Positions 19,685 through 26,538 of a stretch of DNA of 34,011 nt are shown here, piece after piece. The first letter of the stretch is position 1; every line of letters starts with the position of its first letter. The translations under genes and the position numbers were made by a program. A model generated the notes under the pieces. It saw only the letters and a program-made list of their open reading frames with translations, was not told where the DNA came from and searched no databases. Source of the stretch: an uncultured Bacteroidota bacterium (GTDB taxonomy: Bacteria; Bacteroidota; Rhodothermia; Rhodothermales; Salinibacteraceae); NCBI GenBank assembly GCA_937127285.1, contig CAKZLV010000039.1, positions 1 through 34,011 of the forward strand, written 5' to 3'.

Positions 19685-19756
19685 CGCTTCACCGGTCGGC
19701 CCCGTCTCATCGGTCGATCCCGCTCCACGGGTCGATCCTGCTTCACGGGTCGGTCA
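19685..19756. repeat. 4x18-bp degenerate tandem repeat (cgctcCACgGGTCGATCC-type)
   Basis: Units cgcttcaccggtcggccc / cgtctcatcggtcgatcc / cgctccacgggtcgatcc / tgcttcacgggtcggtca. Confidence 0.8.
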
Positions 19757-22513
19757 CGGAGCAACCGGGTCGACGAAGCGGGCCGCGAATTCGTGGATGC
19801 GCACGATTCGGTCGATGCGCTGCAGCGGGGAGGCGCTGCGGAGGGCGTTGTGCCCGGCGCCGGGATAGCGCACGTACTCGACGGGTCGGTCGAGGATGGC
19901 CAGCGTCCGGTACAGCCGGTCGCTCTGCGACGCGTCCGTTCGGGCGTCGGCCCCGCCGTGAAGAAGAAGGAGGGGCGTCCGGATCGCGTGGGCGTAGGGG
20001 AGCGGCGAATTCCGAAGGAGCGCCTCACGCGGCGAGAGGAGGGAATCGGCCGGGGAGGGGGCGCCGGTGTTGCCGGTGTCGGCCGCGGCCTGGGCGGAGG
20101 AGGGGGCCTCAGACGTCGTCCCCCGGTTCGTGCCCGACCGGGCGGTGGAGGAAGAGGGAGCGGTGGAGGAAGAGGGGGCCGACGCCCGGCTGCGAGCCGA
20201 GACGACCACCGAGTCGGGGCGGCCGGCGGCCGGGGGGGCGGGCCCGTCCCACGGGTAGCCGCCGAAGTGCCGGGGCAGGAGGCGCCAGGCGCTGCTTCCC
20301 AGGAGGGCGGGCAGGTCGTAGGCCCCGCGTTCGGCCACGGCCGCATCAAAGCGGTCGGTTTGGCTGATGATCCAGGCGGTCAGGTATCCGCCGTACGATC
20401 CGCCCATCACCACCTGTTGCGACGCATCGATCCCGGAACGGCGGGCGGCGGTATCGGCCGCGGCGAGGACGTCGGCGGCGGGGCCCGGCCCCCAGTTCCG
20501 GTTGGGGAGGCGGCGGAAGGCGGCGCCGTAGCCCGGCGAGCCGCGCGGGGCCGCCACCACCACCGCGTAGCCCTGCGCGGCGAGGTACTGCCCGTCGTGC
20601 CACGTGGTCGGCGCGGCCGGTCCGGCAAGGCCCGGGGGCCCGCCCCGAATGGCAAGAAGAAGCGGCGCCCGAGCCGTATCCGGCCGTGCGGGGGGATGGA
20701 GCACCCAGGCATCGATGCTCAGCGTACCGCTCGCCACCGTCAGCGGCTCCGGCGTTGCCAGCGTCCGGCGCTCCAGCCAGGCTGCGTTGTGGCGCGAGAG
20801 GCGTCGTTCGCGGGAGAACCCGACGGTGTTGGCGTAGAGCTCCGACGGGTTGGCGGCGTCGCTCGCTACGTAGGCCACACTGGCATCCGTCACGTCGAAG
20901 GCGTGGATTCCTCGGTCGGTCGTCGTAAGGGCCTCGCGCGGGACCCGCCGGGTCATGGACGAGTCGATGGCAAAGGTGTCGCGCGAGGCACCGTCCCCGG
21001 CCACGGGCACCGGTTCCGGCACGTCGGTCGTGTCGCTCCGCCCAAAGGGAGCAAGGCGAAAGAGCGGCAGGCCGCCCTCCGCCGGTGCCGTCACGTACAG
21101 GTACCAGCCGTCCGGAGACCATCGCGGGGGCGACACGTCGCGGTCGAAGTCGCTCGTCAAGAGCTGCGGCTTCGTGCGGCCGTCCAGAGCAAAGAGCCCG
21201 AGGTCGTGCTGGACGGGGCCGGGCGTGCGCAGGTCCTGCATCCGGAAGGCGACGGTGGTCCCGTCCGGGGTGATGCGGGGGTCGGAGAGGGCGTGATCCT
21301 TCAGGTCCAGAAGTCGCTGCACGCTCGACGTCCGCACGTCGACCAGGAACAGGTCGCGGTCGCGGACCCGGTCCGGGGGACGATCCGTCGCGGGGGCGGC
21401 GCTGACCACGATCTGGGTTCCGTTCGGCAGCCAGTCTGCGTCGTGGAAGGAGCGGGCGCCGCGGGTGACGGGGCGAGACGGCCGCGGTGCGGTGCCGCCG
21501 GTAAAGAGCGACGGCGGAACGGTCACGACCCGGTAGTGGCGGTAGGAAACGTCCGGTTGCAGGCCGCGCTCGCCCTGAAAGTCGAGCCGGCGAACCACGC
21601 GCGCCGTCTCGGTGGAGCGGCGGCCGAGCCACTTGCGCACCTGGAGGAGGTCGCCGTCGGCGGCGGGCTGGAGCCTCTGTCGCGAGGCGGCCTGCAGAAC
21701 GGTGTCGCGGAGCGTTCCGAGGGAGTCGGACAGGGCCCGCAGACTGTCGCCGAGCGCGACGCTCAGCGTATCGACCGGGTCGAGGGTGGTCGAGTCGCGC
21801 AGCACCACCAGCGTATCGGGGGGGAGGGTGCGGAGCGTGTCCTGGGGCGACCGGCCGGGTCGGACGGTCCGGGGAACGCGGCCGGCCGAGCGAGAAAGGG
21901 CCCGTGCCGGGGTTTGCGTGGCGAAGAGCAGGCGGTTGCCGCCCGGAGACCAGGCCGGATTCGTCGCCCCGTGGGGCGCGTCGGTGAGCTGAACGGGTTC
22001 GCCGCCGGTGAGCGAGAGAACGAACACCTGCGGGGTTCCGTCGACGGGCCGGACGAAGGCGATCCAGTCGCTGTCTGGGTGCCAGGCCGGTTGGGAAGCG
22101 CCCGCCGCCGCCCGCGTCAGCGCGCGAGGAGGCTCTCGGCCGCTCGTCGGTACGACGTGCAGGTGCTGCTCCATCCGGTACCGAGCCCGTCCCGGCCCCG
22201 AAGAGTCCGCCACCACGCGGCGAACGGTGTAGGCGATGCTGCGGCCGTCCGGGGCGATCCGGGCCGAATCCAGGTGACGGACCCGCAGCAGGTCGGTTGC
22301 GCGTACGAGCGAATCGCGCACGAGCGAGTCGCGCACGATCGGATTGCCATCGGCCGCCGGCGCCGGGGGCGGCGCCTCGCGGGCCGGGCGGGCGGCGGAG
22401 AGAAGCGTGAGGGCGGCCAGTACGGCGAGCACCACCGCACTACTCGGGCGGGCGCGCCGGGCGGCCGGGGAGGCGAGGGAAGAGGGTGATTCCGACGTAG
22501 AGGAGGTTGGCAT
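19754..22513 (-). CDS. S9 family (prolyl oligopeptidase-type) peptidase, exported
   Basis: GGSYGGYLTAWII nucleophile motif, HGGADARTDASQSDRLY, PGAGHNAL; N-terminal propeller (AWSPGGNRLLF, RWSPDGWYLY). Likely ATG at 22513. Confidence 0.88.
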   Translation of the reverse strand: MPTSSTSESPSSLASPAARRARPSSAVVLAVLAALTLLSAARPAREAPPPAPAADGNPIVRDSLVRDSLVRATDLLRVRHLDSARIAPDGRSIAYTVRRVVADSSGPGRARYRMEQHLHVVPTSGREPPRALTRAAAGASQPAWHPDSDWIAFVRPVDGTPQVFVLSLTGGEPVQLTDAPHGATNPAWSPGGNRLLFATQTPARALSRSAGRVPRTVRPGRSPQDTLRTLPPDTLVVLRDSTTLDPVDTLSVALGDSLRALSDSLGTLRDTVLQAASRQRLQPAADGDLLQVRKWLGRRSTETARVVRRLDFQGERGLQPDVSYRHYRVVTVPPSLFTGGTAPRPSRPVTRGARSFHDADWLPNGTQIVVSAAPATDRPPDRVRDRDLFLVDVRTSSVQRLLDLKDHALSDPRITPDGTTVAFRMQDLRTPGPVQHDLGLFALDGRTKPQLLTSDFDRDVSPPRWSPDGWYLYVTAPAEGGLPLFRLAPFGRSDTTDVPEPVPVAGDGASRDTFAIDSSMTRRVPREALTTTDRGIHAFDVTDASVAYVASDAANPSELYANTVGFSRERRLSRHNAAWLERRTLATPEPLTVASGTLSIDAWVLHPPARPDTARAPLLLAIRGGPPGLAGPAAPTTWHDGQYLAAQGYAVVVAAPRGSPGYGAAFRRLPNRNWGPGPAADVLAAADTAARRSGIDASQQVVMGGSYGGYLTAWIISQTDRFDAAVAERGAYDLPALLGSSAWRLLPRHFGGYPWDGPAPPAAGRPDSVVVSARSRASAPSSSTAPSSSTARSGTNRGTTSEAPSSAQAAADTGNTGAPSPADSLLSPREALLRNSPLPYAHAIRTPLLLLHGGADARTDASQSDRLYRTLAILDRPVEYVRYPGAGHNALRSASPLQRIDRIVRIHEFAARFVDPVAP

Positions 22514-23294
22514 CAACACCGGGATTGATTTGACCGCGGAAGCCGTTGGACGTGTGATGATAGCGGTAGCCGACGGTAAGCATCGACGCATCCACGACCC
22601 GGACTCGAAGGCCGATACCGACGGAGGCGGTGAAATTCACGCTCTTGCCCTGCCGATCCGGGACGGGAGCGAAGAAATAAATAAAGCCGGTGTGTCCGCT
22701 GGCGAACGGACGAAAGCGGGCGGCGGCCGAGCCGGCCAGCTCCAGTCCGACGGGGGTAAGCCCCAGTCCGAGCGCACGAAAGTCCGAGGTCGGCCGGGTG
22801 CTGTCTGGGAGGGCCGGGCGGGCCGAGCGGGGAATTCGAAGATCGGCCCCCACGACGCCCCCGGTGTACGCCAGCGTCGGCCCCCCGACCCCGATCTGGG
22901 CCATCGTCTGTCGATAGCGCACCCCGAAGAGGTCGAACGACGAGTCGCGAATCTTCCCGATCACGCCCCCGGTCGCCATGGAGTGTCCGATCCAGATGTC
23001 GATTCCGCGCGTACCCACGGGGGGGTGGGGACGCGGAGCCGGTGCCGGATCCTCCGTTTTTGCATCCTCCGTTGCTAAATCCTCCGCTGCTGGGTCCTTC
23101 GTTGCTGGATTCTCCGCTGCTGCGGGTGCCGCTGAGGCCGGCTGCGTGGTGTCGGGGGCGGAGGACGGGGGACGGGTGTGGGTGGAAGGGCCGCCCAGAG
23201 CAGCAAGACCGATCGCGGCGGCGAGGCAAAGGGAGATCAACACGTTCGAAAAGAGGATTCGAGAGGACGACTCACGGAAGACAGCTCGCAACAA
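22440..23294 (-). CDS. Acyloxyacyl hydrolase / lipid A 3-O-deacylase (PagL-like) outer-membrane protein with a repeat-rich N-terminus
   Basis: C-terminal YRYHHTSNGFRGQINPGVDANLLYVGI matches the PagL H-x-S and NPG signature; barrel-like strands. Confidence 0.78.
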   Translation of the reverse strand: MLRAVFRESSSRILFSNVLISLCLAAAIGLAALGGPSTHTRPPSSAPDTTQPASAAPAAAENPATKDPAAEDLATEDAKTEDPAPAPRPHPPVGTRGIDIWIGHSMATGGVIGKIRDSSFDLFGVRYRQTMAQIGVGGPTLAYTGGVVGADLRIPRSARPALPDSTRPTSDFRALGLGLTPVGLELAGSAAARFRPFASGHTGFIYFFAPVPDRQGKSVNFTASVGIGLRVRVVDASMLTVGYRYHHTSNGFRGQINPGVDANLLYVGITLFPRLPGRPARPPE

Positions 23295-23544
23295 CGGCTC
23301 GCGAAAGACAGTTCACGAGAGACGAAAGGCGGAGCGGCGGGCTGCCCTCCCCCGTCCGGTTTGTTTTTCGCAAACCGAGGGCACGGCGGAGGGAACGCCG
23401 AACACCGGCGACGAAGGCAGGTAGCTTTGTGCGGATCGGAATTGGCCGACGGCTTCGGTCTTGCCGCACACAGGAAGGCCGAACGGCCGCCGCAGCCGCC
23501 GGATTCGAACGCTATCGAAGTCACGAGAGGTTGCTTCGTCCTGC

Positions 23545-24336
23545 ATGGATCTCTTCTACAAAGAATACAACGCCGCCGACGCGACGGACCCGTTGATGAT
23601 TCTCCACGGCCTCCTCGGGGCGAGCGGCAACTGGTACACGCTGAGCCGTACGGTTTTTCAACACCACGCCCACGTCTTCACCGTCGATCAGCGCAACCAC
23701 GGGCGGTCGCCGCACGCCCCCACGTTCGACTACGAGGCCATGGCGGCCGACGTGCGGGACTTCATCGCCCGCCACAATCTGGGGAGCGTCACGCTCATGG
23801 GGCACTCGATGGGCGGGAAGACGGCCATGCAGACGGCCCTCACCTACCCGACGCTCGTCGACCGGCTCATCGTGGTGGACATGGCGCCGAAGGCCTATCC
23901 ACCGCGCCATACGGATCTGCTTCGCGCCCTCCAGCGCATCGACCCGTCCGACTACGACGACCGCTCCGCCATCGATGCGGAGCTGGCGGAGAGCGTCCCG
24001 TCGCGGCCCATCCGGCAGTTCCTTCTCAAGAACCTACAGTATGACGGGGAGAGATACACGTGGCAGATGAATCTGGACGTGATCGCGGCCAATTACAACG
24101 CAATCAATGACGCGATCACGTCGTCGAGCACCTTCGACGGCCCGACGCAGTTCATCCGGGGGGGAGACTCCGACTACGTGGAGGTGGAAGACATGGTGTA
24201 CGCGCGGACGCTCTTTCCCGACGCCACGCTCGAGACGATCGACGGTGCCGGGCACTGGGTGCACGCCGACGCGCCGGAGGCGTTCGCAGACGCCGTCGTG
24301 GAGTTTCTGGAGCAGCATCCCGAAGCGGCGGCGTGA
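23545..24336 (+). CDS. Alpha/beta hydrolase (YbfF-like esterase)
   Basis: MILHGLLGASGNW, DQRNHGRSPH, TLMGHSMGGKTAM, DGAGHWVHADAPEAF. Confidence 0.9.
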   Translation: MDLFYKEYNAADATDPLMILHGLLGASGNWYTLSRTVFQHHAHVFTVDQRNHGRSPHAPTFDYEAMAADVRDFIARHNLGSVTLMGHSMGGKTAMQTALTYPTLVDRLIVVDMAPKAYPPRHTDLLRALQRIDPSDYDDRSAIDAELAESVPSRPIRQFLLKNLQYDGERYTWQMNLDVIAANYNAINDAITSSSTFDGPTQFIRGGDSDYVEVEDMVYARTLFPDATLETIDGAGHWVHADAPEAFADAVVEFLEQHPEAAA

Positions 24337-24519: not shown

Positions 24520-26538
24520 ATGAGCCTCTCTTGTCGGTGCCTGTGCGTGCTGTTTCGATTTTCGCCCGCCCTCATCCTCCTTACGCTCCTCGTTGGAGGG
24601 AGGAGCGGGCCGGTTTGGGCGGCCCCTGCCGATGGAACAGTTCCCTGATTCGAGGCGGGGGACTGCCGCTTCGAGGTGCGTCCCGAGCACGGCGACGTCA
24701 CGTGCGGTCACGTCACCGTCTACGAAAACCGCGACGACCCGTCCGAGGGCACCCTTCGCCTCGCCGTTGTCATTCTCGAAAGCCCCAGCGACGACCCGGC
24801 GCCCGACCCGATTGTCTTCCTCATGGGCGGCCCGGGCGGCGCGTCGCTCGACCGCATGCCCTGGCGGGCGACGCATCCGTTCTGGAGCCGGTACCGCGCC
24901 ACGCGCGACATCATCTTCTACGACCAGCGCGGGACCGGCATCTCCGAGCCGACGTTCTGCCCGAACCTCAACCGTGCGCTGTTCACAGACGGGCTGCGTG
25001 GATTCTCGACCGAGGTGCTTCGCCAACGGCAACTGAAGGCCGTTCGCGAATGCCGGCAGGAGATGGAGGCCCGGGGGATCGACTTGTCTCAGTATAACAG
25101 CGTCGCGTCCGCCCACGATCTCGACGACCTGCGCGCCAGCCTGGGCATTGCGTCGTGGAACGTGCTGGGCATCTCATACGGCACCCGCCTCGGTCTCGAA
25201 GCCCTGCGACAGACGCCGGACGGCATTCGAAGCATCATCCTCGACTCCGTCCTGCCCGTCGACGCCGGGTACTGGCACGACGAACCCGCCGTCTTTGAGG
25301 CGTCCCTCCAGCGCGTCTTCGACCAGTGCGCCGCCGATCCGGCCTGCCGCGAGGCGTTTCCAACGCTGGAAGCCGATACGTACGATCTGTTCGCCCAGTT
25401 GGAGGAAGAGCCGATTGTCGTCGCCATGGACGACACCACCCGCTTTCCCGACCGGCGGATCGTCGTGGACGGAACGGTCATCGCCGCCGGCATCTTCCAG
25501 GGACTGTACTCGCATCACTTCGTGCCCTACCTGCCGTTGGTGGTGCGGGAGCTTCGTGCCGGAAACGCGGATCTCCTTGCGGCAATCGGCGAAACAATGG
25601 TTCGTGCACCGGACGCCATCAGCCGTGGGATGTATTACAGCGTCTCGTGCTACGAAGGGGCGCCGTTGACGAGCGCGTCGGAGCTTGCCGCCGAGCAAGC
25701 GGCCCATCCGCAGTTTGCCCCGATGTACGAGTGGACCGACCACCTTGCGGTGTGCGATGCCTGGCACCCCTACCGGGCCGACCCGACCGCGCTCGAGCCG
25801 GTTCGTAGCGACGTGCCGGCGCTCCTCCTGGCCGGAGAATTCGATCCGATCACCCCTCCGGCGTACGCCCGCCTCGCCGCACAGACGCTGTCGAATGGTA
25901 CCGTCCTCGAGGTGCAAAGCCGCGGCCACAGCGTCGTGCACACCACCGCATGCACGCGGGGCGTCATGGAGCGTTTTCTGGACGATCCAACGGCGCCGCT
26001 GGACACGAGCTGCGTGGCGGAGGTTCCGCCGGTGTCGTTCGTAACGGACGTGCACGTGCAGGGCGGCGTCTTCCGAACGACACAGCGCTTTGCGTCGGGG
26101 CCCCGTACCGGGCAGATCGCCGGACTGGGCGGCCTCGGCGTGATTCTGCTGTCGGGACTGCTGGCCTGGCCGGTGGGATTCGCCGTGCGCCGAGTCCGCA
26201 AACGGCCCGTGGCAACAACCGGTGTCCAGCGCATGGCGCGCTGGATGGCTGCGCTGACTGCGACCGTGGTGGTGGGATTTGCCGCTGGACTCGCGACGGT
26301 CGCGGCGAGCGCCGCATCCGCGAATCCGTTTGTGCTTACCCTCGGCGTGCCGGCCGGGGCGGGCTGGCTCTTCATCCTGCCGTGGGTGGCCGTCGTGCTG
26401 GCCGTCGGCACGGTGGGCGCGGCGGGATGGGCCTGGAAAGAGGGATGGTGGACGCCCGCTCACCGTGTGCACTACACCCTCGTCGCCGGCGCCACGGCCG
26501 CCGCCTGCGTTCTCCTCGGCATCGGTGGATTCCTGTGA
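24520..26538 (+). pseudogene. Exported alpha/beta hydrolase (TAP/proline-iminopeptidase-like) with a C-terminal multi-TM domain, interrupted by an in-frame TGA at 24646-24648
   Basis: Signal peptide ORF (MSLSCRCLCVLFRFSPALILLTLLVGG...ADGTVP*) and hydrolase ORF (FEAGDCRFEVRPEHGDVTCGHVTVYENR...DQRGTGISEPTFC...GISYGTRLGLEAL...LLAGEFDPITPP) share one frame, separated only by TGA. Confidence 0.75.

Follow-up and report, generated by a model that had tools for sequence, protein, structure and literature searches.

The window—the whole stretch of 34,011 nucleotides analysed here—carries on its forward strand a reading frame in which a signal peptide and an enzyme part are separated by an in-frame stop codon. 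By direct reading of the sequence, the ATG at position 24520 opens MSLSCRCLCVLFRFSPALILLTLLVGGRSGPVWAAPADGTVP; the signal peptide reads MSLSCRCLCVLFRFSPALILLTLLVGGRSGPVWA (24520–24621), complies in translation with a simple signal-peptide rule and lies in the best of the six coding frames. The cleavage site, placed by eye between VWA and AP, is followed by the short linker APADGTVP (24622–24645), which in the alignment is the counterpart of QQTIP, EGQVP and DQQIP in the relatives, and then by the TGA at 24646–24648. Past this stop the frame is open from 24649 through to the terminal stop, likewise a TGA read directly at 26536–26538, thus giving a body of 629 residues, in whose codons neither a further stop nor a frameshift is present. 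The body consists of the mature TAP-like α/β-hydrolase domain (24649–26106) and a C-terminal hydrophobic segment (26107–26535, its start being approximate), a probable membrane anchor that is common to three aligned relatives (L020, L039 and L040). The first in-frame ATG, GTG or TTG after the stop, and hence the first candidate restart codon, is the GTG at 24676–24678, the tenth codon of the post-stop part.

With regard to the coding character of both flanks, a periodic fifth-order model was used, with cleaned open frames taken from 1.17 Mb of the same genome as its training set. The hydrolase frame is the best of six both in the 126 nucleotides 5′ of the stop, by a margin of 8.5 log units, and in the 240 nucleotides 3′ of it, by a margin of 24. 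The initial annotation, describing a TGA between a signal peptide and a hydrolase with the frame open to 26538, was therefore accurate, since the arrangement is read directly and both sides score as coding. It should be noted, however, that the signal peptide is by itself weak evidence, because 76 of 5000 random 285-nucleotide pieces (1.5%) contain a stretch that resembles a signal peptide and runs on to the end with no stop; directly upstream of the preceding stop, such a stretch was found in 3 of 384 genes, the hydrolase included, in a gene set partly contaminated with antisense frames. What places the signal peptide beyond chance is that the homologues keep an identical layout at identical spacing.

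Concerning the enzyme itself, the 629 post-stop residues match the Pfam families PF00561 (62.4 bits against a cut-off of 25.8) and PF08386 (58.6 bits against a cut-off of 21), and the protein is related to the solved structures Hip1/CaeA. Three residues invariant in an alignment of eight sequences—Ser176 (25174–25176), Asp399 (25843–25845) and His427 (25927–25929)—form the probable catalytic triad. Judged from its sequence, the post-stop body is a TAP-like α/β-hydrolase with an intact Ser-Asp-His triad. The gene directly upstream (23461–24336, forward strand) encodes another α/β-hydrolase, the best NCBIfam match of which is the PRK10673 esterase, at 174 bits and thus under the cut-off of 399 for that model. 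A large prolyl-oligopeptidase-type S9 peptidase with a PD40 match is encoded at 19754–22591 on the reverse strand, so that the neighbourhood contains several hydrolases.

The nearest relative found, 44% identical, comes from Fodinibius (Aliifodinibius) salipaludis and is the best of three loci retrieved by a scan of genome contigs. In this gene the signal peptide, AQQTIPR and FEPGKCPFE follow each other in a single frame, with an arginine where the window has its TGA. The relatives from two further genomes (G032 and G054) also have arginine there, reading EGQVPR-FEPDS and DQQIPR-FEPDS where the window reads ADGTVP, stop, FEAGDC; all four share the layout of signal peptide, short linker and then (I/V)PRFE, apart from the stop in place of the arginine in the window. 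Three others (L021, L031 and L207) have isoleucine, leucine and valine, respectively, ahead of FE, and the position therefore tolerates substitution. None of the relatives compared at this position keeps a stop, and among the clear relatives, wherever the 5′ end could be read, there is no downstream start that leaves out an N-terminal export signal. A premature stop thus occupies a position that is a sense codon in intact relatives, which is the mark of a nonsense pseudogene, and the residue encoded before the stop arose was most likely arginine. These comparisons bear out the initial annotation on two points: its guess of an earlier arginine codon (VPRFEAGDC) agrees with three relatives, the closest one included, and the downstream-starting homologues lacking a signal peptide that would have spoken against it do not occur among those clear relatives in which the 5′ end could be read.

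In this genome TGA behaves as an ordinary stop. It terminates 322 of 687 well-scored open frames, being the commonest terminator, and the genome encodes RF2. Searches of the genome, which is 87.7% complete, gave no match above cut-off for SelB or tRNA-Sec, the best eight weak matches of the latter falling on ordinary tRNA genes; selenocysteine at the TGA was accordingly rejected. The tRNA-Trp(CCA) has, as read by eye, a 5-bp anticodon stem and carries neither A9C nor G24A, the two tRNA-Trp changes named in PMC13092985, and a suppressor-type tRNA-Trp (UCA anticodon, 4-bp stem, A9C/G24A) was not found among the tRNAs scanned, which are part of the genome's set. Reassignment of UGA to tryptophan was rejected, too, given TGA as the main terminator, the presence of RF2 and the ordinary tRNA-Trp, as was a strong RNA structure past the stop, the fold of the 3′ sequence being no better than that of shuffles (z −0.83). 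Thus neither a stop conserved in relatives nor a stimulating RNA structure, the features of programmed readthrough, was found.

A scan for stops with same-frame coding sequence on both sides, covering 1.17 Mb with a sensitivity of about 88% well inside genes—lesions near a gene start, as in the hydrolase, would be missed—yielded 48 junctions, 18 of them TGA (38%, versus 47% TGA among terminators). Most of the 48 have the look of gene boundaries, with one gene ending and another beginning, and no class of TGA-interrupted genes emerged from the scanned 1.17 Mb. Taken together, the scan, the stop usage and the machinery searches give no sign of a genome-wide habit of TGA decoding. Three stops (L148 at 595, reverse strand; L180 at 4692 and L197 at 1403, both forward strand) have coding-like flanks in the same frame and no obvious new gene start, and these are possible interrupted genes of the same genome.

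The gene is unevenly distributed. In most genomes of the family nothing matches it, and no genome of the family has an orthologue of comparable similarity, the nearest full-length relative belonging to another order; plasmids gave no nucleotide match, only protein relatives of approximately 25–31% identity. Within the genome, a single fragmented draft of 370 contigs, there is no second copy. Two relatives of the same class look, from their sequences, like independently broken copies: in genome G127 the match (L027, 1113–2430, reverse strand) shifts frame between 1573 and 1508, and in genome G129 a relative 49% identical over 67 residues (L031, 1456–1836, reverse strand) ends after about 127 codons, with an unrelated open frame directly after it. 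In view of this patchy distribution and the two independently broken relatives, the hydrolase gene looks dispensable.

Based on the above results, it appears probable that a recent nonsense change of a single codon, in the simplest case one for arginine, has hit an accessory gene in the window whose product is an exported, membrane-anchored TAP-like hydrolase. One such change, giving the TGA at 24646–24648, would end translation from the ATG at 24520 after a signal-peptide stub of 42 residues, and the exported enzyme would be lost or sharply reduced. We infer that the organism really carries this base and that expression has been lost, and likewise that the lesion is young, as the remainder of the gene is still intact. 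A single change in the body can take 5661 forms, 156 of which would create a stop; none of these is present, and from this our own arithmetic limits the time since the lesion, under neutral drift, to about 6% divergence. Such a limit is compatible with a lesion of recent date, with an assembly error and with continued use alike, and the last two would agree equally well with the intact triad and the open body. The stop agrees with the picture drawn in PMC7918605, where many in-frame stops in bacterial genes are described as often short-lived, on the scale of population polymorphism. Among the four options listed by the initial annotation, the nonsense mutation is thus the best supported, while readthrough and restart found no positive support.

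A smaller but real chance belongs to the TGA being a consensus error of sequencing or assembly, or the base of a minority strain, with the gene intact in the organism. The draft state of the genome, the otherwise intact body and the scarcity of other interrupted genes in the sampled 1.17 Mb would suit such an origin, but no homopolymer lies at 24646, no repeat spans it, and the stop is not close to a contig end. Short-read assemblies usually contain few substitution errors in their consensus, an argument that counts against an error only if the platform was of that kind.

It is improbable that some ribosomes pass the stop, by leaky or regulated readthrough, and make full-length exported enzyme in small amounts. 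The intact body and triad would agree with this, the insertion of a residue would matter little at a position tolerating arginine, isoleucine, leucine and valine, and a proline ahead of a stop can slow termination; against it, a T directly after TGA is held to make termination efficient in E. coli. Although in-frame stops under purifying selection have been reported in bacteria (PMC7918605), here the stop is kept by no relative, the unexceptional fold of the 3′ flank, the lack of SelB and tRNA-Sec matches above cut-off and the ordinary tRNA-Trp speak against readthrough, and TGA is an ordinary stop not enriched among the coding-flanked ones. A functional leaky switch, in which rare readthrough at the residue-tolerant linker would keep the dose of exported hydrolase low and most ribosomes would let go of a bare signal peptide, is most improbable; readthrough, if true, would mean a stop codon controlling the export of an enzyme. 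A restart at the GTG at 24676, which would leave the enzyme cytoplasmic or mis-sorted, is very doubtful. This codon is in frame, 28 nucleotides past the stop, and is the likely choice of gene callers; no well-placed Shine-Dalgarno sequence was, however, seen by eye before it, the start would discard FEAGDC, the Cys6 of which is common to L020 and L021, and an N-terminal export signal occurs in every clear relative in which the 5′ end could be read. Annotation thus calls for caution, as callers starting at this GTG would have the enzyme called cytoplasmic, whereas homology shows an exported enzyme interrupted by a single stop.

Compared with known systems, the locus resembles UGA recoding—selenocysteine, UGA-to-Trp reassignment or suppressor tRNA—solely in the in-frame TGA, the machinery being undetected here and TGA being the main terminator. 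With the TAP-like α/β-hydrolases (PF00561 and PF08386; Hip1/CaeA) it shares the domain content and the catalytic motif, as well as the export signal present in the relatives; the copy in the window, however, has an in-frame stop between the signal peptide and the domain, and its C-terminal membrane segment is absent from many relatives. Although the stop is known from one genome only, in contrast to the cases in PMC7918605, the gene is like the nonsense pseudogenes and polymorphic in-frame stops of bacteria described there in that its frame is intact except for a lone stop, at the position of which the relatives have sense codons.
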